From Branchiostoma floridae (Eukaryota > Chordata > Leptocardii > Amphioxiformes > Branchiostomatidae), in NCBI RefSeq assembly GCF_000003815.2, contig NC_049989.1:19089176-19153175 (forward strand): a stretch of 64,000 bases of DNA. The letters are read 5' to 3'. Positions 38,455-58,600 of the stretch are shown here, piece by piece. The notes below the pieces were generated by a model. That model made no database searches. It had not been told where the DNA came from and worked only from the letters and a program-made list of their open reading frames with translations. How positions within the stretch are numbered: position 1 is the first letter of the stretch; every line of letters starts with the position of its first letter. A program made the position numbers and the translations under genes.

Positions 38455-41400
38455 GTAAGTGTGAACTCTCCAAGCAGACGAACAGCTTTCTATTTTGTAT
38501 ACCACTTTATTGATGTCTCGCGGCCTAACGAGATATCAAGTAAACGGTACAAAATAGAAAGACCGATAAAAACGCAGAAAAAAAAACGTAAAAAAGAAAC
38601 AAACAGAGCCTTACCTCTGCTTGGATAGTATTAGAGTACCTGCTTTTGAACTTATTACTTATATGTCTAACCTTCATCGACGTAAGTTAGAAATCTATCC
38701 ACCTGCTTGAGTGCCTAATGTCCTGCGGATTGTTAAGTTGTGCATGTATTGACATAACTTGAAAAGCTGTGGACGGATTTTTAAATGTGGATAGAAGTGG
38801 AAAATTAATTTCCTCCGGCGACCTTCCTCACAATTGCAGGTGAACTTACTTAATGGGATAACTGTATCCAATGTCATTCTGTATCCATATATTTATTCCA
38901 ATTATCAGTTTGGTTAAAAGGATTTCATCTTGATGATAGGACTTGTCCATGTAAAACTATGATGCAATTTCTTTTGACAGACATCAACGAGTGCAGCAGT
39001 GGTAACGGCGGCTGTAGTCACACTTGTTACAACACACATGGCAGCTTCTACTGCAGATGTAGGACCGGATATCAACTCTCAGGCTCAAGGGCATGCTTGG
39101 GTAAAACCAACTTCTTTTTTTAGAAATATGTAATAAATACATATATTAGACACTAGACAGGTTTCACTGTACAAACAAACAAACAAACAAACAAAACAAA
39201 CCTTGTCCTTACTGTATATAAGATGAATGAAATAAGACACCAAGAAGTCAGGATATGCCGTTTACATTATTATGCAAAGAAAGCAGATATGTTTTTATGT
39301 TAAGTGCATTAACCGAGATATATGTATACATCTTCGTAGACATCAACGAGTGCAGCAGCAGCAACGGCGGCTGTAACCAAATCTGCACCAACACTGCAGG
39401 GAGTTTCAGCTGTTCCTGTAGGCCTGGTTACCGTCTTTCAGGCTCCAGGACTTGCGTGGGTGAGTGCTATTTCACTGCGACACCTTTTTTGCTAGATTAA
39501 TGAAAAAATGAAGTCTATGCTTCACAAAATTCACCTACATTTATACTGTATAATGCAAATCCTTTTACCGTCTAATCTATGCTGTCAACATAATGTTTGT
39601 CCAAATAACCGTTACCGTTACCACATGCTTAAGGTTCAGTCTAAATGGTATTTATGAAATGAAAAATGTACTTTCGTACGATCATCTTTGCAGACATCAA
39701 CGAGTGCAGTACCAATAACGGCGGTTGTAGCGAGACCTGCACTAATATCGTGGGCGGTCACTACTGCTCCTGTCAACCGGGGTATCGCCTAACGGGGTCT
39801 GGTGCGTGCGTGGGTAAGCGCTACTCTTTACGTACTACAGTCAAAAGTGGCCAACTCGGGACCAATACGATAAGATTTTATTGGTCTATGTGGCCAGGTA
39901 TTTATATGGATATATGGTGTGCTTTTTTTTTAAATAGGACCTAGAGTATTTCAGAAACTACAGAAGCTTTGTGGCCAAATAAATAAAAAGTTCATGGAGA
40001 GGTGAGTTTTCTGGGTTTCAAATGTTTACTTGTTTTATGCTTTCTGTTGTTTTGTAACTATGATACGACCCACAATATAAGAATCTCACAACAAGATTCG
40101 TAGTATGACAAATACTGTACCCGTCTTCCGGTATGATTTGGTTCAGAAATCGCATTTTTACGGTTATCGTATCATAACCGACATCTTCTGCGCAGAGTTT
40201 ACAACTCAAGCGGTGGACCTCGTCTTCCTGATCGCCCGTCCTCGCTCCTCCGTCAGCAACGCCGACGTCAAGACGTTCCTGAAAAGCGTCGTGGCCGCGC
40301 TCAACGTCAGCCAGACGGCCGCCCGGGTAGCCGTCATCGAGTACACGTCAGTCATGCACAGCCACTTTGATCTGCCGACGCACCTGACCAATGCACAGGT
40401 ACTGTACTTTGCCTTACTTTATTCAGATTGTAACAGACAATACAATGCGGGCACATAGGCAGCGAGGCTGATATCGCGACCACATTGATACATACATAAT
40501 ACAAAATTGAACAAATAACAGTAGAATAAAAGTAGATACATTCAAAATACATCAATTACAGCTGGAGCATATGCATAATATGTAAGCTAAGGATTCAAGA
40601 CTAGGCACAGCTGGAAGTGAATCGTTTAGTAGTTGTTACTATGCCATTTTATCGCATTGGAAAGTTTACTATTGATAACAAGGTCATGGTCAGGTGAACC
40701 CCGGAGCAGTAAAGAAACGGCGAGACGTTTTTGTATGAGGCATTCAACATTGGAGGTTAGTTTGCTGCGTTGGTCAGAATACAGGGGGCAGTGTAGCAGG
40801 TAGTGTTGAACCGTTTAAGAGAAAACTCCACAGACACATTGTTTGTCCTTGATGTTCATCTTGTACAACGTGCACAGGTGACCTCGGCTATCAACAGCAT
40901 CCCGGCCTGGGGAACCACCAGCTACAGGAAGACGGGTAGCGCCATTAAGTACCTCACCGACTACCTGTCCTGGAGGGACGGCATTCCCAAGGTCCTCGTG
41001 GTCATCACGGACGCAACATCGAGTGAGTGACAAACACATTGCGAGCAGTGATGAACTGATTATTGAATGAATTAATGAATAGGTTGACGAATAAAACATT
41101 GCAGGAATTAATGAATGAATGGGTGGATTGATGGATAAATGGATTGATGGATCAATTGACAGACGGTAAGATAAAGTGCTAGATGGATGGATGGATGGAT
41201 GGATATGGATGGATGGATGGATGGATGCATGGATGGATGGGTATGGATGGATGGATGCATGGAATGGATGCATGGATGGATGCATGGATGCATGGATGGA
41301 TGGATATGGATGGATGGATGGATGCATGGATGCATGGATGGATGGATGGATATGGATGGATGGATGGATGCATGGATGCTTGAATGATGGATGGATGGAT

Positions 41401-45562: not shown

Positions 45563-47705
45563 CTCACAAAGCATCTGTAATAACAGTGTTTGTAAACCCA
45601 CAAATCATCCGAATGGAGGCCTGGAGAGCCCTCTTCTCGTATCAGCAACATGGTGATTTCCATCATTCACCCGGAGACCTGTCTCGTCCTTGTCTTGTAT
45701 AATCTGCAAGTAGATCCTGCGGTAGCATAAGATAGTATCAAAAGCTAGCAGAGGAGTGAAGCCGGCCTAGGAGTGTGTTTGGCTACCTACATGGCAAATG
45801 TATACCTCTTGGCTGACTACACTCCTTGGCCAGTTTGGTGCTATCCTATGCCATCGTAGGATCTGCTTGGAGACTAGTCATGTACTCATCTAACGAAAGA
45901 GTATGTCACCCGTAAGGGGCGGTAAAACCCCATCGTGCGTAAGCACCTCGACTGATGATTATGGCAGTGTTTGTTATTAGTGGTATTGTGATGTGTGATG
46001 ACGTGCTGTGTAAATTTACAACGAAATAGTCGTCTTTGTCAAGAAGTCATGACTTCACGGATTTACTTTCTGTGATTTAGTTTTATTTAGTGTTTATTCA
46101 TATTGTAACCAGTCTTGAGACATCTCAAAAGACGTTAGTGGAAACTTAAGATACAAGAGCAAGGATTTTACAAGACCTAAGTGACAAGAAGTTACTTGTC
46201 AATGAATGAGTCATAGCATTGAGTCGCTCTTTTTTTATTTGATTTATTAGGTTATATAAAGACACACGGTCATGGCTACCCAACTAGACTATTATAAAGG
46301 GCTAGCACTGGTTACTGCCCAATACTATAGCTTGGCAGCTTGACGTAGGTTGTACAAACAATGCAAAGCGAGGATTTTAGACACTGAGGCGGCCTGGGTT
46401 ACCGACCTAACAAGTGTAGTATTTGTTATAAAAAGCAACGTAACAAACTTCGATCTAAAATCAGTGTCGCATAGTTACTAAGCTATGTACATTATCAAGG
46501 TTATTTAGTACGTAGAAAGTAATTGTCATCACGTGTTTGTTGAGCGCTGTCCAGAGTATTTGAAAGCTGTCCGGAGCACAGACATTTTGTCATCAAGCGT
46601 TTATAATTAGGTAACATTACAAACCAGTTGGTAAGCAGAGATTTCATGTACTTGCCAAAGGGTATTGTTCTCCTGTACATATTACAGATATTTTATGTCC
46701 TTGTGTCTGCAATGTCTTTGTTGTGTTGTTAAATCTGTTTTCATGCTTGTCATAGTTTGATCCTTACAGACATTTATTCTTAAGGTTGCATAAAACAAAA
46801 TGAGGGCAAATGCTTAAAAGTAGCTCCGCAACACATCTCCTAGCTATATACCTCGACGTGGAGATAAGTTTTACAGACATAAAAACATCACATATGAACA
46901 GTTAATGTAATAAGAATTTACCTTACACGCGTCATATCATACAACAAATATTGCAAAATCAAGTTTGAAGCTATCATAATAATAGAAGTTTAGTTGCAAG
47001 TTCTTGCCCGAGGGCTAATTGCAAGTACATGGTATAAACATAGAAGATATACAAGTGACAATGGACAGCAATGAACAATATTCTACTGTAATACTAGTGT
47101 TGGCTATTTCTAAACAGGTTGGGTTTGACTTCTTTTTTGGAAGCAGAGGGAGACGAAATGCCCCACCTTTTCTAAAATTTGTGGGTTCTGCAATTTCAAG
47201 AGAAAATACAATAACACAAAAATGGTAAAGATCAATTGATTCAGCATGTTCGCGTCATTTAGATGGACCATTATAGTACAGGATTTATCCAGAATGACGT
47301 CACCAGACCTTGTCCTGACGCCATATGGGGTATCACACCGAAGTGACTTGTGCCCCTGACTGCATCACTGCCATTGGTGCATTAAAGCAGAAAAATCCCT
47401 TTAGAAAAGACAAAAGAATATAACAAAGATGTTTTATACCCCGCAACCCAAGGATCATTACATCTGGTTTGGTATATCTCATATGACAAAACCGATGATA
47501 GCTACATTTAGCTCACACACAAAGCAATTCTGTTATATTCGTTTAAGCGTATTCGGGTTAGTAGATTAATTGATCACAGCTATCTTTTAGTCTTTTATAG
47601 GCGTTTCAACGACTTGTCTGTCGTTTCATCGGTGCATAATTATGTTGTGAATGAAATTAAAAAAAAAAAACTTGAATTATACAATAAGCGCATAGGGTAT
47701 CTCAC
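45563..47705. other. 3' flanks of gene B (+) and the kinase gene (-)
   Basis: Convergent gene ends. The kinase C-terminal tail exon and 3'UTR should lie here on the minus strand, but no exon can be identified from sequence alone. No convincing poly(A) signal for gene B was found. A hairpin element (45706-45873) is the only structured feature. Confidence 0.4.
45706..45873. mobile_element. inverted-repeat element (AGATCCTGCGGTAGCATA ends)
   Basis: CAAGTAGATCCTGCGGTAGC at the left mirrors GCCATCGTAGGATCTGCTTG at the right, with further inverted similarity inward (GATAGTA / TGCTATC, GGAGTG / CACTCC). About 168 bp, possibly a MITE in the gene B 3'UTR, where it would fold as an RNA hairpin. Confidence 0.65.
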
Positions 47706-50700
47706 ATTGGGATCCACCTCCAGCTGTTCTCTGATAGCCGTGGCGCCAGGTCTGTTCTTCTCGTTAAACTTCCAGCACTGCAGCATCAGCTGGTATCTGT
47801 GTGAGAGGAAGCAAATCTTATGTTCATCTCACCACATAGTAATCTCCGCCAATGCTATTTTCTGTTTTTGCGTTTGTATGCGTGTATGTTTGTGGATGGA
47901 CAGCGGAACTAGAGAGGGTTTGGGTGGATTGTATTGATATTCAATATGTAGGGAAGTCTTGGTGAGATCTTGAAATGATCAGATTTTGGCACCCTAGCAG
48001 CTTGATACAGTACTGCAGCGGGGCTTCCGGTTTTGACCATGACATCTCGAATTTTGGACTTGCTATGTTCGTACTTTTTTAAGTAGTAGATACGAGGGGG
48101 GTTCAATAAGTTCTTGGCCTCACCAAGAAATAACAAGCACAACTCAGATTTTCAGGCACAACTTCATAGTATGAAGTCTTTTATCAATATCCTCCAAATT
48201 ACAAATCATTGGAGTCATTACTTTCCAGGCATTCGTTTTTTCTAAATTAGAAGGTAAGTGGGGAGAAAAAGAAGGGTGAAGTGTGATCAGACAATTTGAC
48301 CTCACACCTCAGGTTGCAGATCAATTGTCCACCTTTTTTTTTTCGTTATCCCTTACCTAACGTTACTGGGTGTCGCCTGCAACATGATGATCACAATAAT
48401 TTGAATTTTGGTACACATTTATATAAGACTTTATACATGTACGTGGGGTTATCAATAAGTCCCCGACTTTACCGAGAAAAAATAAGCACAGCTCAGATTT
48501 CGAAGCATAGATGTCAAGTATAAAGTCTTATATAAATATGTACCAAAATTCAAATTAGTGTGATCATTACTTTGCAGGCGACACCCAGTAACGTTAGGTG
48601 AGGGAGAAGGAAAAAAACGTGGACAATTGACCTGACCTGAGTGTGTGGGTCAATTTGCGCTGCTGGAAGTTAGAAACCCAATTCTTTTTGCTTGAAATAG
48701 GAAGAGAATCATTATCAAACATTTTGACAACGTCTTTTGTTAATTTATGGCATGGGAAACTAGACCCACACATGTCTGATCACAATTCACACAACTTTTT
48801 TCTCGCCACTTACTTTCTAATTTAGGAAAAACGAATGCCTGGAAAGTAATGACTCCAATGATTTGAAATTTGGAGGATATTGATAAAAGACTTCATACTA
48901 TGAAGTTGTGCCTGAAAATCTGAGTTGTGCTTGTTATTTCTTGGTGAGGCCAAGAACTTATTGAACCCCCCTCGTAGCTCTTGAGTGGTGGATAGCTCTC
49001 GATCGTCATAGTGCAAGGAGGTTAAAGAGACTTCATTGGATCTTGTAAGCCAATGAATGATGAGTACAGACTTTTAAAAATTTGTCCTTTTTTTCTCCAG
49101 TGAACAAACTCCAGACGTACCTTTCCTCTGTACACAGCTGGGGTCTGGGGAGTCTGAAGTGGTTTTGCAGAGCATCGTACAGTCTGTCTGCACCTTCCAT
49201 CCCAGGGTACGGCGTGCGGCCCAGCTGCGCCACCTCCCACAACAGGACCCCGAAAGACCACCTGGGAAGTAAAAGTCACCTGTCACTGTTTTAAAAGGAG
49301 AATGGTACAATATAGCAGAGGTTTGATGCTGCCTGTCTTGTCATTTTCTTTTACTTCTTCATGTAACAAGTTCTGCTTAAGTATCACGAGGATGGGGGCA
49401 CGGATTATTGCAGCTGCCGGTTAGGTCCACTCTCTTATGTTGCGTGGAAAAAAGGGCAAAAATACAAACTATCTGCAGCAAAGATTTACTCACACGTCGC
49501 TCTTGTCTGTGAACAAAGCCTCATTCTTCAGGCCCTCCGGCGCCATCCACTTCAGAGGCAGGAGTTCGCTGTTCTAGATAATAAACGGACGGGAGTGGTG
49601 ATCAGTATTTTATTTTTCTTAGACAGCTAACGAAATTTTTCTGCCATTTTTCGATTGTATGCTTTAAAAGATTTCTATATTAGTAAACATATGTATTTCT
49701 TACAAGATTGCAGGTTCGGCAGATGAGTAATACCAAGACTTCATTCGACCAGGACTAGTCAAAACTATCAAGCAAGGAACCGTCCAGGGCTAGGGAGGAA
49801 GAGAGAGAGGTGGCCAACGAAAAAGATGGGAGGGTGAAAAAAAATGGTTGCCATAGCATCTGTAGTGGTCCAACGGTCAAATAGTTAGCCTGAGGGACAG
49901 ATGAGATGATATGTCCGACCTACCCTGTCCTGCCGATGGTACCCCACAGCGTACATGTCCCGGGCCAGCCCGAAGTCCGCGATCTTGGCGGTTCCCTTCC
50001 CACAGATCAGGATGTTACGGGCTGCGATGTCTCGGTGAACAAGCTGGGTACAAAAAATCGGAGCTTTTTTGTTGAGATTGATTTTACAGTTTCCTTGAGC
50101 AAGAAGATGGCCGAAATCTTATTGTTGACACTGAGGCCCAGAACAAAAAAAAAACCTTTGTTATTTTGTACACGTGAAAGCCTTAATGTTATTTATATAG
50201 TTTCTGTCAGTAATCATATAAGGCGGCCTTTGTAATATCCACAGCCTAGCTTGAAAGCCTTGGCTGTGCGTCCTGAGTAGCCCAAATCATGAATGATTCA
50301 TTGTAAACACATTGTAAAGTTTGAATGCCGTTGGACTTCGCAAACAAGGGCAACGGATTGTCTGCCCTATGAAGGATTGAATTCACAACCAACAACCATT
50401 TACAGATTAACTTTAGCCTGTGTTTGTGATTTGGGACGGCCATTACGATATAAGAATAAATACAGATCACATTCCGTGACTGGGCTATGATCTTTATTTA
50501 TGGTACTTAGCTTCAAAAAATGTTGTTAATGGTTTCTCACCCTCCTGCTTGCCAGATGCTCCAGACCGGAGCACACTTCCACCATCATGTTCTCGAAGAT
50601 GTGCCGTTTGTTGACCAGAACGGTCCTGTTGAGTTTGGACTCCGCACGTAACGTCCACAGCAGGTGCAGGAGACTCCCGTGTTCGGCATATTCCAGCACC

Positions 50701-52650
50701 AATTCGAGCGGACCTATAGGGAAAAATGTTCATGATGATGACTATACTACATTTAGCTCGAGAGCTCGACATGTCTGGACACCTGTGCCTGTCTCATTGA
50801 ACCAGAACAAGTATATTAAAGTTTTATTTATGAGCCACTGTCTGAAATAGGATTTTTTTCTAACTAGACAGCTGGTATTTGCAAACAAATATGTAATGTT
50901 AACCTTACATCGTTATTTATTCTTACTCAATACCTATATATCACATTCTTACTCAATACCTATATATCACATTCTTACTCAATACCTATATATCATATTT
51001 ATACATATATCAACCAGTTGTAGTTTGCTAGTTACAACATGTAATCGAACATCACAGGATATCTGCTACTTTACCAGTAACCACGGTGACAACCGTCTAG
51101 TCCAGGTAATTAGCCATATTCATTTTGTTCGTTTTGTTTTCATTCAAGTGGTTTAAGTCAAATAAATTATCCCTAAATATAGACAAAACAAATTTCATCA
51201 TTTTCACAGGAAGAAATAAGAAATACAGTAAAGAAATGGCAAAGTTACACATAGATAATAAACCCATTAAACAGGTAAGCAACGCACGGTTTTTAGGAGT
51301 CGTTATAGATGAAAAACTCACGTGGAAGTTTCACATAGACATCATTTGTAAGAAAATTGCTAAGAATATTGGTATCATAAGAAAAGTCGCAAACTGCCTA
51401 TCTCGTAAAATATTTATGACTCTTTACTACAGCTTGATATACCCCTACTTAACATACTGCAATATAATCTGGGCTAGTACTTACACTACCTCATTAAAAC
51501 CACTGCACCTACTACAAAAACGTTTTGTTAGAATTGCATCAAACGCCTCTTTTATAGCAAACTCAGCAACTTTTTTTCACAATCTGAAGATTTTGACACT
51601 ATACGACATAAACAAATTGCAGTCAGCCATTTTCGTCCATAAAGTTATTCACAATAATTCTTTCTTACCAGTCCTATATAAAGACATTTTTAAGTACAAC
51701 GCAGATATTCACAATCACAGTACAAGGCAGCAAAACAGTCTTAGACCTATCAAAACAAAATCGAACCTAACACAATTTACTATAATGTTTAGAGGCCCAT
51801 CCATATGGAACACTCTAAGTCTTTCCCTACGAAATTGTCAGTCGCTTTCCATTTTCAAGAAACGTATGAAAAACAACCTTATAGAGAAGCCAACTATTTA
51901 CTCCTGATTTGTTTTTTTTTCCTTGTTTTTGATCATGTTATGCTCAATTATCATTTAGTATTATACCGTGTATTTGGTGCTCCTTTAACCTGTTTGTTTG
52001 CAGTCTTTGCACCCATTGTCTTGGTTATCTGTATTTGCTTTCATTTTGTTTTGCTAGCATGATTAATTGTATGATTTTGACTAATTTCTTTATGATCTGT
52101 TGATCATGTTTAGTTTTGTCTTATTTCAGTTTTTGATGTTAAGATTAATTGTAACGTTGTGTATGATCACTGAGTTATATTATTTTCACTTGGTTTATTA
52201 TTGTTCGATGTATAATCTTCATGACCATTTAATTGTATCATGATTTGTATATTTTGACGGGGGGAGAGTTTGTATAAGCCACATGGCTTTTTTCTCCCCC
52301 CTTGCACGTTCTGTTGTATTCTATAATTTTCTGTATGTATCATTTTTTAAAGTGCAAAATAAAATCAATCAATCAATCATTTAAGAAGAAGAAACGGAGA
52401 GAAAACAATCCGTGAAGGTAAACGTAAGGAATAACAGAAGGAATGGCAGAAGACTACCTTTTAACTTCTTGACGGCGACCACTTCATTATCTCTATCAGG
52501 GTGTGCGAGCGTTGCCTTGACTACGTGACCAAAAGCGCCCTCTCCCAGGAGCTGTTGGACCTGCAGCCTATCCCTGTCGATCTCCCTTTCTTTCAGTAAC
52601 TCGATGTCGATACTACTTGATAAGGAACTTTCTGCAAGTGGCATCACGGC
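47706..52650 (-). CDS. kinase gene exons 16-21: tyrosine kinase domain lacking helix C
   Basis: Exon 52458-52650 ends just after VAVKKLK (phase 1). The next exon found, 50541-50713, begins at beta5 with [19 protein letters not shown] (phase 1). Conserved kinases have about 38 residues between (helix C with the salt-bridge Glu, and beta4). Later exons carry the catalytic and DFG loops (49924-50043), APE motif (49494-49573), helix F region (49121-49261) and the CW...RP motif (47706-47796, [20 protein letters not shown]). The two activation-loop tyrosines are YAVGY. Confidence 0.93.
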
Positions 52651-55600
52651 CTGAAAATGAAATGGTGATGTATTGTGATTTACTGACTTCAATAGTCTGA
52701 AACGTAATATTTAGATTTCAGGCAGTGAGCGTAACGGTTAAAAATATTGTATCATTTTGTTTGAATGAATGAATGAATGAAAGAAGGAAGGAAGGAAGGG
52801 AGGAATGAAGGAAGGAAGGAAAATATTAGAACCTATCAAATAAAGATGAAAATACCATACTCTTTAGGGATGTAAATTTGTCTAATTGCTTTTTATCAAA
52901 TGGTTGGTCCAAAGCAAGAGTATGTTTGTCATCGAAACGAACCTTTAAATTCTGTTCCAGTTGAAAGACTTCTGGATCGTCGATGTTTCCCACCCGCTGC
53001 CTCTTCTTGTGTCTGTGGAGCAGGAAGATGGCGCCGAGCAGGAGGAGAGTCAGTCCGGCTGCGGCCAGACTGACGGCCAGTAGTGTCGTCTGGGATCCTG
53101 CAGTGTATTCAGAGACTGCAACAGGAGGTCAGCCTTTTTACATCGTAGGTAGTTAACAAATTAATACACTCTGTACTAATGTACTTAATGCACTCTGTAT
53201 GTATGGCGTTTCGTGATGCAGTTCCCATCAAAACTGCGACACCAGAAATATATTTTATGATTAATGATACCACTGGGGTTGGTATATTGTGCATGACTGC
53301 AAACGTTAATTGAAAAACACAGAACTTGTTGTTTATTGCTATTGCTTTAAAAGGTTTTCGTTCGGATTGAGGTGATTTTATGTATAAAGACGCAATTCTA
53401 TGTAAGTAATGTACTGTTAAAAAGACTGACCTGGTCCTGCACACCCCAGAAGCCGGTCACACGTAGCCTGTCCGGTACAGTTACAGACCTGGTCACATCG
53501 CTCGCCGTAAAAGTTATCTTGGCAACCTGAAATGTTTCAACACAGTGTCTCATTATTATTGGCTCTCGCAATACAAGTATGATGGCAATTTCATATACAT
53601 TATTACACAGGATACATCTAAAAAGTTGACAATATAAAGTAAAAGTGACAGCACCTGCTATTGTTATATTCACTGTGTCGTAATATTCATCTCCACTCAT
53701 GCTGAGAGCCTCACAGGTCCACAGACCTTCATACGCAGGCACCAGGGAGTTGACGTGTAGAACAGAAGAGCTGGCAGGAAAGAAGGGACAGAAGAATCAG
53801 ACATCCGGAAAAATAACTATGGCCATCATCTACGTTCTTTATCATCTATTCTTTCAAGTGATGAAAATGCGACATTTTTCTGTTCACTTACAAGATTAAA
53901 ACAAAAGGATTGTGATTAGTTTAAAAAAGACGTAAGATGACGCACTTGCTGCTGTTCGTTACATTCAACAGAGTTTTGTTCCCATCCTGAGAGAACCACG
54001 TGATGTTGGTCACTTCAAAACTGTAGGCTGTGCAGGTGAGCTGCAGTTCCTGTCCGTATCGCAAGTCTGACAGGTCACTGGTAGAAGTACTGATGAGTAC
54101 TTCTGGGTATTCTATAAATAGGGAGAACAATTGTTGTTATTGTAAGGTTGCACAAAATGATAGTATTACATCATGTGGGAGAAAAAAGGGCAGAGATACG
54201 ATGTAGCCGAGACATATAAGTGTTTTATCAGTCGAAGGGCTACCACGCGCTCTTCAAAAACGACCCTTTATCTAAATACTTATATTTTTTGAGTGGGAGC
54301 TGGGATTCTTATCTCCTTTAAGAATTGGGAATCTCCCAACAGGTGGGAAGTTATATTCCTCTGTTGTCTAACCCCATATGAAAGCAAATCGCAATGGAGA
54401 AAACGATGAAGGTTTGATGAAGGTTTGAGGTCTTTGCGTTTGGCTGCTCCTCACCTGTGTTGCAGTTCTTTCCTGTCCAGCCAGGGGCGCACCTGCACGC
54501 ACCGTTGAAACTGTGACACATTGCTCCGTTGTAACACCGACAACGCTCCGCACAGAACCGCCCGAACCGGCCGATGGGGCAGGCTAAATAAGGGAGAAAT
54601 GGTTTTGATAGATAACTGTCCCGTCAGGAAATCACAGGTCTACTTATTTACCTAATGATAAAATCTACTATTAATGTGTACCTACTCGTCTAGGTCCCTT
54701 CATCATCATCATCCTCGTCGCATGTCAGTGTTTACTGTTTAATTATGATTGGTATGGGAACAGGCAAGTACCAATATTTCATATCACACACAAGCACGCT
54801 ATTTATTGGTGGGGGTGGGGGGAAGACGAAGTAATAATAGAATTAGACATATACATTTACAGTCATATACTCTCACACCAACATAACACTTTTTCTTCAT
54901 ATCTCAGATATATAATCCCCGGATGATCCAATCAGGGGTAAAAGTGGAGGGATGGTACCCCAGGACTTCGCACGCACGCACGCAAATACACGCACGCACA
55001 CACACACACGCACACACACACACGCCCACACGCCCACACACATACACACACATACACAAACATGTGCACGCACACACGCACATACACACACACACACGCA
55101 CGCACACACACACTCACACGCACGCACACAACCAAACACGCTTCACTTACCTGTCACAATGACTTCAGTCCTAAACTCCTCGCCATTAGTTGTACAGCTG
55201 ATTTTATTCATGTCAGTGTTCCATACTAACCGTCCTACCTGGACATGCATGAGTAAATCTTTGTTAGAACAAAACAAAACAAAACGAATTCTTTTCTACA
55301 AGCTTGACTTGTGTCTTGGCGTTAGGAAGCATTTTATTAACGTACGAGATATAGCGAAAGACAGATGGATAAATACAGTTTATGGAAAGAATTAATAAGA
55401 ACTATATTATTGTTTTAGCTAAAATAACGTAAATGGATGATTACACTAATTTTTTCACATTGAAAATTTTGTGTGGGTAATATAATATATTTCCTTCATG
55501 GGAGAGAAAAAAATCAGCTTTGCGAAAATTTATGTCATTGTAAGCAACCTATTCATAAAGGGCAAATACAGAGCACCGTAAACGTCTTATCATCAACATA

Positions 55601-58600
55601 ATCGACTTGTGTAGAGAAAAGTTTACTATTTACATGTAAGAAGAAGAAATATACCTTGACATTGTAATACGTGTACTTTACGACGGCAATATTTCTCTCC
55701 CATGGGTAGTCGTACATGTAGAAGGGGATCCATGGCCAGTCGTCAAGTGGATATGTTCTGCGGTATAGCCGCCATAAGAAAGAAAAAAACAAGGTTCGTC
55801 ATCATCCCTGGCAACCTCAAAATGCAATGTGGCGAGATATAGGGACACGAGATTTACCAGCTATGTAAAACTTCGAGCGAGCTCGCCGGAGTGAGTGTGC
55901 GAGTGTTCTCCATTCAGTCTTACCTCTTTAATATGGGACCAAAAGCCACCCTGCAGGATTACACTATGGTGCACTGAGCATCTCCAGGGTGCAGGAGTAC
56001 AGTCTCAGGATGGGATGCTTTCAAAACAACAGCTAGAACACCTATATTTTTGAACCCCTTACGTAAGCAGGTCTGGTGTACATGTTCGTTCAATGAAATT
56101 GCAATCATAATAATTTGGATATCTTTGGATAAGTTTTCTAATGACATTCAATACAGTGAAAACGGAGATATGGTCAGCTGAAATTAATATTCCAAATTTG
56201 TTGTGCCGAGTTCAGATAGACAGAGAGAGAGAGAAATAAATAAATAGATAGATAGATATAAATTACCCAATTTTTCGCATATACAGCTCGCCCCCTGCCA
56301 TGGTGCTATTATTGATTGGGTCACAGCTTAGCTCGGTGTCTGGCGTTAATTCAAAATCAAGGACTCCTTCTTGGATAGCAAGGTAGAACTCGAAGGTATC
56401 TGGTGGAAAAAAATAACCGTTAGGTCCACTTAGAACGTACGGCGATGATGTTATATTAGAATGTGATGAAACACTAACTTCTGAATCAAATGTCTTACAA
56501 CTACTAGTATACACTACTGTTCCGGCAGCATTTTGTGCAATTGATACATTTCATCATTTTATAGGTATAGATAGGATGAGCTAACAAGCGAAATGGTGGT
56601 TAGTAACAAGAAAAGTGAACTACTCACAGCCAAACGTAATCGGGCTTCTCTTGTCAGTTGTGTAGGCGTACGGATAGATTCCTCTAACGTTGGTGAAGGG
56701 CCAGTCAAAAATCTCCAGCTGAACAAAATTCTGAATACAACAGAGGCATTACATTATAATATGATTTAGGACAATCAGCTGATTCTGATGATAAATAGGA
56801 AAAAGCCATGCACTATCAAACAGCATTCTATCGATTTCATCATAAAGCAATAAGTACAGAATCAAATGTTGTAATCTTCACAATAACAGCTTAATCCTTT
56901 CGTCATTAATCTTAACAATGTATAAAAGAAAAAAATACAAAGAAGCTGAAGTAAAAAGTAGTTTTGGCCAAATTCAATAAAATATGATTTTAACGATTGC
57001 AGCTGACTGAAAGTTAGTACCATTGTCGGAAACGCAAAACTCATTTTTGATTGCTACTTGGCCACTCTATATTGCCTATATCTTGTATAGTGAGACGAAA
57101 CACACACTGCTTTAAATGGTGTTTTTACCGAGACTGAACGATTGCTAAATGTCTTTTCTGTTTGCGGGACGAACGTATCTTCATCAAACACCGGCTCATC
57201 CTCTGCAGAAAAGAACAGAAAGGCATAAGGTTTAATTATTTACTGTGTTGCTGGTTGTTCACAATAAGTTTACCACATATATTTATTTCGGTTGTGAAAT
57301 ATCCGCGGAGGTAGTTATGACTCGAGTTTTTTTGTACTTATGTTTGATATGCCAGATGTAGCTTCAACTCACCCACTTCCCTTGTGGTAAATGCGAGGCT
57401 GAACTGGGTCCGTGAAGCTAGACGACGTGTTAAAACAGCGTATAGCTTGTTGCCGGTACTAGCCGTGGATAAGTGTAAATGTCCTAAGTCAGGTACTGAA
57501 TAGAGAAAAGTAACACAAAACGTGTAAAACGAAAGGTAGCATTTGCATCCAAATGATAATGGATAATGGTCTAGCTTACCAAACTACTGCTTTTTGTATT
57601 CTTCTTAGAGTCACGCGTGTTCTTACATACGGTGACCAGCCCTTACGCTCTGTCCTACCACTTGCTACATAATGTAACACCACATGTAACAAAGGATGTC
57701 TGCTAGCTAACCAGTAGCCATGGTGATAGCTGTCTGGTCCAGGTCTTTGAACTTATTTGTGTGGAAAGGAAGACAAATATTAGTAGTTAAACTAGTGACA
57801 GTAAAAGGGAATACTTACGAGGCTGGTCTCCACAAAAGCTGTCGAGGACCTCGCTGTTTGTAGAACCTCCGTCGTAGAACGTCAAAACGTCAGAAGTACA
57901 GCTGTCTGTACCTCGGCGGAAACCCATGGTATCGAAATTGAGCTGAGATGGACAATGATATTTAATACCAGTGCTTATCTATGCATTACCAGTGCTTATC
58001 TATGCATTGGCATTTTACAGAGCAATGACACCAATAGTTGTAATTCGAAATCTTCTTTTGAACACAAACGCTATCTGTGGTCTTAGAACCTATGATATGG
58101 CTTTGATATTTTATTCATATTTTCTTTACAACGGGCACATAAACATATTTACGAGTCCTACCAAAAAACAAAAGCAACGTCAAGAATATATTACCGTAAA
58201 CGTCCACTTCTTATGAAATTAAACACAGATTGAACCAAGCTTTAGTTACCAGTATTATCCTGCCCACGTCAGTAGTGATGTCCCACTCACAGGGGTATGA
58301 CGTCACGTCAGTGAAACTTGATATGTAGCCTCGTTTTCCGGTGAGGTGGTGCAAACATCCGGAAGCTGGTGGGGGGGGGGGATTACAGATGATTACAATA
58401 CATTGTTAGCTATGATGACACATAAAATGATTTCAGTTTTCGGACTTTTCAACAAAAATCGTCCATTTACTACTTTTCGTTACTTGATTCATTTACAACA
58501 GTCTCGTTTCAAAATACATTGAGCAATGAAGACGAAATCCACGTTCACATACCTACCGTCTGACTGCCAAGGGTGATGTAGCAGGAGGATAACATGCTAA

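Follow-up and report, generated by a model that had tools for sequence, protein, structure and literature searches.

The 64-kb window analyzed here (C11:19089176-19153175, the whole stretch of DNA under study, taken from a Branchiostoma floridae assembly of 513,431,437 bases in 431 contigs) carries a receptor tyrosine kinase gene on its minus strand. The published forward primer for B. floridae AmphiAmR11 (PMC3827198) has a single exact match in this assembly, at C11:7015526-7015545, and 0 matches in the reversed control. For the GFP family, of which B. floridae has many genes, a search gave 0 matches; as its 14 controls were equally silent, this does not indicate absence. The kinase exons, designated E1 and E3 to E7, were placed by hand from splice signals and reading frame (Table 1). 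Joined together, they form an open frame of 266 amino acids in which the catalytic Lys and the HRD, DFG, and APE motifs are intact, and which matches Pfam PF07714 with 214 bits (cut-off 23.1, E 2.9e-63). The best single-domain structure matches were FGFR and RET kinases, preceded in rank by one EGFR chain containing the kinase in duplicate. Upstream, domain profiles run on the window placed a CUB domain above its cut-off and Ig-like and EGF-like domains below theirs, and a genome search showed the transmembrane and ectodomain exons to be common to a group of paralogs on C8. The gene belongs to a small family of multi-exon receptor tyrosine kinases, with CUB, EGF-like, Ig-like, and transmembrane parts ahead of the kinase.

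Table 1. Positions in the window of the exons of the kinase gene and of the features of the intron between E1 and E3
Feature	Position	Strand	Remarks
CUB domain stretch	57820..58363	-	two exon matches, 57820-57963 and 58004-58363; the reading of the latter runs through stops outside the exon
EGF-like exon stretch	54441..54578	-	match limits
Ig-like exon stretch	53945..54115	-	match limits
EGF-like exon stretch	53423..53596	-	match limits
Transmembrane exon	52943..53119	-	match limits, genome search; relatives at C8 places
E1: juxtamembrane, Gly loop, β3 (VAVKKLK)	52458..52650	-	3′ end phase 1
Intron without the helix-C/β4 exon (E2)	50714..52457	-	E2 DNA and protein profiles unmatched; no N
Intron left between E1 and LINE 3′ end	52380..52457	-	78 bp
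5′-truncated LINE copy, antisense to the gene	51147..52379	+	(AATC)n tail; 1233 of 1744 intron bp
Intron left between LINE 5′ end and E3	50714..51146	-	433 bp
26-bp tandem repeat	50919..50999	unassigned	3.1 copies
E3: β5 to helix E	50541..50713	-	phase 1 to 0
E4: catalytic stretch through DFG	49924..50043	-	phase 0 to 0
E5: P+1 loop exon, ...SDV	49494..49573	-	phase 0 to 2
E6: kinase exon	49121..49261	-	phase 2 to 2
E7: kinase exon, ...VDPN	47706..47796	-	
Possible last exon and stop (NPQILEKVGHF...QPV*)	47110..47187	-	candidate, by eye only

The P+1 exon initially looked like a second missing exon, a reading that was discarded once it had been located at 49573-49494. Separately, the intron between E6 and E7 contains inverted repeats at 48088-48979, with arms of 183 nt (97% complementary) and 103 nt (91%), which look like a palindromic mobile element.

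The kinase domain is incomplete between E1 and E3. E1 ends with ...VAVKKLK and the first base (G) of a split codon at 52458, and E3 starts with GT CCG CTC at 50713; GT and AG are present and both ends are in phase 1, so that splice signals and frames bear out the exon limits set by the original prediction. As it had also claimed, joining the two exons directly keeps the frame, the phases being 1 and 1 and the joined frame open. When the joined frame was aligned to FGFR1 (chain 5am7), K64 corresponded to chain residue 62 and G65 to residue 100, leaving 37 residues without a counterpart.

The nature of the missing piece could be read from related genes in the same genome. A search with the joined kinase gave 146 matches, and at least nine paralogs were recognized, a lower bound as 144 of 544 candidates were scored: eight in a cluster on C8 (23.48-23.77 Mb) and one on C4 (23.33 Mb). 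The nine stretches compared are referred to as L039-L047, L047 being the C4 copy. In all nine, a 111-bp exon running from phase 1 to phase 1 lies between E1 and E3. This exon, E2, encodes ALLRETCIMLLCG.HDN...LKGICFRDG, including the helix-C Glu, and 25 of its 37 residues, counted after the split first codon, are invariant. It aligns without gaps to the helix-C/β4 segment of FGFR2, Glu facing Glu, and the FGFR2 residue is the one that pairs with the catalytic Lys. The missing element is thus, as proposed, a single exon for helix C and β4 with its Glu; the proposed length of about 114 bp needs correction to 111 bp. Pairwise dN/dS of the remaining kinase exons of the window gene against the nine paralogs ranged from 0.12 to 0.22, values at which these exons look constrained.

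An exon of this kind was sought in the intron, the window, and the assembly. A DNA profile built from the nine paralog exons, which scored 106.6-126.7 bits in those paralogs themselves, gave a best match of 5.4 bits (E 0.57) over both strands of the window, at 39716-39763, far from the gene. Among the matches listed, down to about 0.4 bits, none fell in the intron, and a 1.4-bit match at 50612-50633 lies inside E3. In none of the six intron frames did the corresponding protein profile exceed -0.5 bits. Both profiles therefore rule out an E2 hidden in the intron on either strand, and the absence claimed by the original prediction is upheld, with the missing piece visible in nine of nine paralogs. 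Of the 10 genes found, the window gene alone lacks the exon, the profile scoring 107-127 bits in its nine paralogs and no more than 5.4 bits in the window. Relocation of E2 elsewhere was ruled out by the window profile together with a genome search using the E2 peptide, in which 18 matches were obtained: the nine paralogs at 70.2-85.6 bits and nine others at no more than 25.4 bits. A tenth strong copy was not found in the assembly, unplaced contigs included (21 of 21 first-look candidates scored), and one of like divergence should be detectable because even the most distant copy, that on C4, still scored 70.2 bits. This search had been suggested with the original prediction. Open, phase-compatible segments of 60-180 bp between an AG and a donor-like GT were also scanned as possible substitute exons; the three candidates in the intron all lie within a LINE, and none resembles E2. 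Neither the intron, nor the window, nor the genome searches thus provided the gene with a complete N-lobe including helix C and its Glu.

What the intron does contain is largely a LINE copy in antisense orientation, accompanied by a 26-bp tandem array and an (AATC)n tail at 52363-52379, in agreement with the earlier description of an antisense LINE and simple repeats. On the plus strand, the open frame at 51110-51907 corresponds to the 3′ coding part of the LINE preceded by some flank; it has no stop before its natural end, in keeping with a young element. Pfam analysis of the window LINE piece gave only a sub-threshold LuxE match; a longer relative, L049, contains RVT_1 (E 2.2e-27). At least 43 genome matches to the LINE were found, its own copy included; the copies begin at various points on the 5′ side and share the (AATC)n tail. 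The 5′ end of the window copy falls where longer copies go on, so the copy is 5′-truncated. The reverse transcriptase of longer copies, the varying extent of 5′ truncation, and the simple-repeat tail are hallmarks of a non-LTR retrotransposon. Compared with 11 copies of at least 97% identity (8 fetched copies below 97% were left out), the window LINE shows 5 private substitutions over 1231 columns and the other copies 2 to 14, which indicates that it is young.

These observations are best explained, with a probability we put at about 0.6, by a recent LINE-associated deletion allele of one dispensable paralog of this small receptor tyrosine kinase family, in which the 111-bp helix-C/β4 exon was lost and which is probably still segregating. 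The copy would then be one that was probably broken recently and perhaps still varies between individuals, rather than a new kind of kinase. A young, 5′-truncated LINE would have inserted antisense into the intron between E1 and E3, and an accompanying deletion would have removed E2. In target-primed reverse transcription, an extra deletion is expected at the 5′ end of the LINE. Here, the LINE 5′ end faces E3, the side on which E2 should lie, and the 3′ end is 78 bp beyond E1; in eight of the nine paralogs E2 starts roughly 180-330 bp beyond E1 (1444 bp in L046). A LINE copy at the site of missing sequence is also what LINE insertion-mediated deletion leaves behind. We infer that insertion and deletion were a single event: the LINE 5′ end points to where E2 would be expected, and the rest of the gene is open and looks constrained, which suggests that the loss probably happened recently, as did the LINE insertion.

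To map the deletion, the two intron remnants were aligned with the paralog introns; each of the 36 scores fell short of the highest value from its 60 base shuffles. The top score, 39, was reached twice by the right remnant of the intron: with intron 1 of L046, where the shuffle maximum was 47, and with the end of intron 2 of L047 (shuffle maximum 40, mean 28.8), the latter giving at most a hint of possible homology. As the paralog introns cannot be aligned above shuffles, neither the end points of the deletion nor a one-event origin can be read from them. The original prediction was right to place a LINE in the gap; a single-step replacement of the exon by the LINE is more than these introns can show.

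Alternatively, E2 may have been lost in a deletion of its own, and the LINE may have entered this intron independently. Copies of such a LINE are common, and this one is flanked by a 9-bp direct repeat with one mismatch (TCATTCAAG/TCATTTAAG), a possible target-site duplication; if it were a true one, no sequence went missing through the insertion, and the exon disappeared on another occasion. However, the repeat overlaps the (AATC)n tail, and it is like the tail-type match found at L057, the only one of five other truncated LINE copies with any target-site duplication candidate. An old loss should moreover have relaxed selection, yet the kinase exons are open and constrained. We regard two separate events as unlikely.

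An assembly artefact, in which the joining or collapse of nearly identical LINE copies would have eliminated an existing E2 together with its flanks, appears more doubtful still. Five other copies, L049-L053, match the LINE along its entire length at 98.5-99.3% identity, the B. floridae reference is not haplotype-resolved according to PMC12373286, and N bases are present in three of the nine paralog stretches. Against this, there are no N bases in the 64-kb window and hence none in the 1744-bp intron, for which the original prediction had named an assembly gap as a possible objection. The genome search, unplaced contigs included, yielded no tenth E2, the LINE copy carries private substitutions of its own, and within the window the intron is not repeated.

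Returning to a recent deletion allele, the youth of the LINE was set against the diversity of lancelets, for which a heterozygosity of 3.2-4.2% is given (PMC12500494). With 5 substitutions and this heterozygosity, the neutral chance that the LINE copy is already fixed is 4.6e-7 to 1.6e-9, an estimate that depends on the species, on neutrality, and on the count of 5; if 10 substitutions are assumed, the chance is 2.8e-3 to 2.0e-4. With a LINE so young relative to lancelet diversity, the exon-less allele probably segregates together with exon-bearing alleles, that is, it would still be polymorphic. A lancelet pangenome classes 10.3% of B. floridae regions as dispensable and reports "protein tyrosine kinase activity" as enriched among the dispensable genes of both species studied, B. 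floridae and B. belcheri (PMC12373286). An exon-less, possibly polymorphic copy among ten paralogs fits this picture, with the difference that the presence-absence variation described there concerns genes and the present case one exon of a gene, in one assembly.

Splicing of E1 to E3 would yield, in frame, a protein 37 residues short, lacking β4 and all of helix C with the Lys-pairing Glu. Given what is known of the kinase fold, loss of helix C and β4 should abolish activity and probably folding. An N-lobe without them would not be expected to fold or work, and the window kinase is accordingly predicted to be inactive. The most likely outcome would be a loss-of-function allele; at best, the product would be a receptor in the membrane whose kinase is dead. 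Known receptor tyrosine kinase pseudokinases keep the fold and vary in catalytic residues. The window gene resembles such receptors, for example CCK4 (PMC8662651), in that its kinase should be inactive; unlike CCK4-type pseudokinases, it keeps the catalytic residues and has neither helix C nor β4. With both of these gone, a loss-of-function allele is more likely than a pseudokinase of the usual fold-keeping type, and intact motifs, constraint, and a young LINE also fit a recent loss of function better than an evolved pseudokinase. On this point, we depart from the original prediction, which had called the product probably a pseudokinase.

In a further reading, the helix-C-less receptor would have been retained and put to use as a decoy, a dominant-negative, or a true pseudokinase. 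The skip is in frame, the catalytic motifs are intact, and the ectodomain and transmembrane exons are related to those of the paralogs; a dN/dS of 0.12-0.22 could mean that the receptor is still used. Constraint can, however, be older than a recent loss, and the LINE is of recent origin; without helix C and β4 the N-lobe should, from established knowledge of the kinase fold, unfold. We consider such a retained receptor very improbable. Equally improbable is its most elaborate form, in which a single step of LINE insertion gave rise to a catalytically dead receptor by removing exactly one phase-symmetric exon, and the allele became established, its product being made, residing in the membrane, and being selected as a decoy or dominant-negative partner of the intact paralogs.

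LINE-1 insertion-mediated deletion was reportedly the subject of a paper by Han et al. in 2005, and one by D'Aniello et al. in 2008 is said to treat the lancelet tyrosine kinase superfamily. A literature search found no paper on the window gene and, for helix-C-less splice forms and intronless lancelet receptor kinases, nothing to the point. The closest parallel is an insertion-mediated deletion by BrLINE1-RUP within BrCER2 (PMC10368883), where a 5′-truncated LINE likewise occupies a site of missing sequence within a gene. That insertion shows no clear target-site duplication; for the window LINE, the 9-bp repeat overlapping the tail is a possible one. The window LINE differs in being of another type, with an (AATC)n tail, and in that a whole exon is gone; the pre-insertion allele is unseen here. 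The kinase itself is like FGFR and RET in its structure matches and in the ungapped alignment of E2 to FGFR2, and unlike them in that the family has an ectodomain with a CUB domain and at least 10 copies in the B. floridae genome. Lancelets are known to be highly heterozygous and to vary in the presence and absence of genes, and among them the locus offers a clean, dateable case in which a young LINE accompanies the loss of an essential exon in one family member while nine paralogs retain that exon. Should the exon-less allele prove common or expressed, it would be a natural test of what a receptor kinase can do without helix C.

The kinase exons also differ among themselves in their distance from the C8 paralogs. 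Silent differences were fewer in E3+E4 than in E1, E5, E6, and E7 in seven of seven comparisons (L040-L046, L039 being left out), with Fisher p values of 2e-5 to 4e-4 that are not independent; for L043, for example, there were 5 in 90 codons of E3+E4 and 31 in 131 codons of the other kinase exons. No such contrast was seen between the window gene and the C4 copy (p 0.87) or between the C4 copy and the C8 copies (p 0.51 to 1). Pairs of C8 copies showed a weaker one in three of four cases (p 0.0024 to 0.026; the fourth, 0.24), and within-cluster conversion or silent-site constraint may therefore add to it. In trees from which L039 and L044 were left out, E1 set the window gene apart from the C8 copies with 91% support, and E3+E4 grouped it within them at low support (15-53%). 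Taken together, these patterns suggest a likely exon-sized gene conversion between chromosomes at E3/E4, the introns being unalignable.

Two further observations concern other parts of the genome. Beyond E4 of the C4 paralog, at L047:3496-3911, several repeated fragments resembling part of the activation-loop exon form a tandem array. On C1, C4, C5, C7, C8, C12, C18, and others, many kinase matches lie in uninterrupted open frames of ~900-1000 amino acids, an apparent large-scale expansion of receptor kinases without introns that share 36-48% identity with the window kinase.
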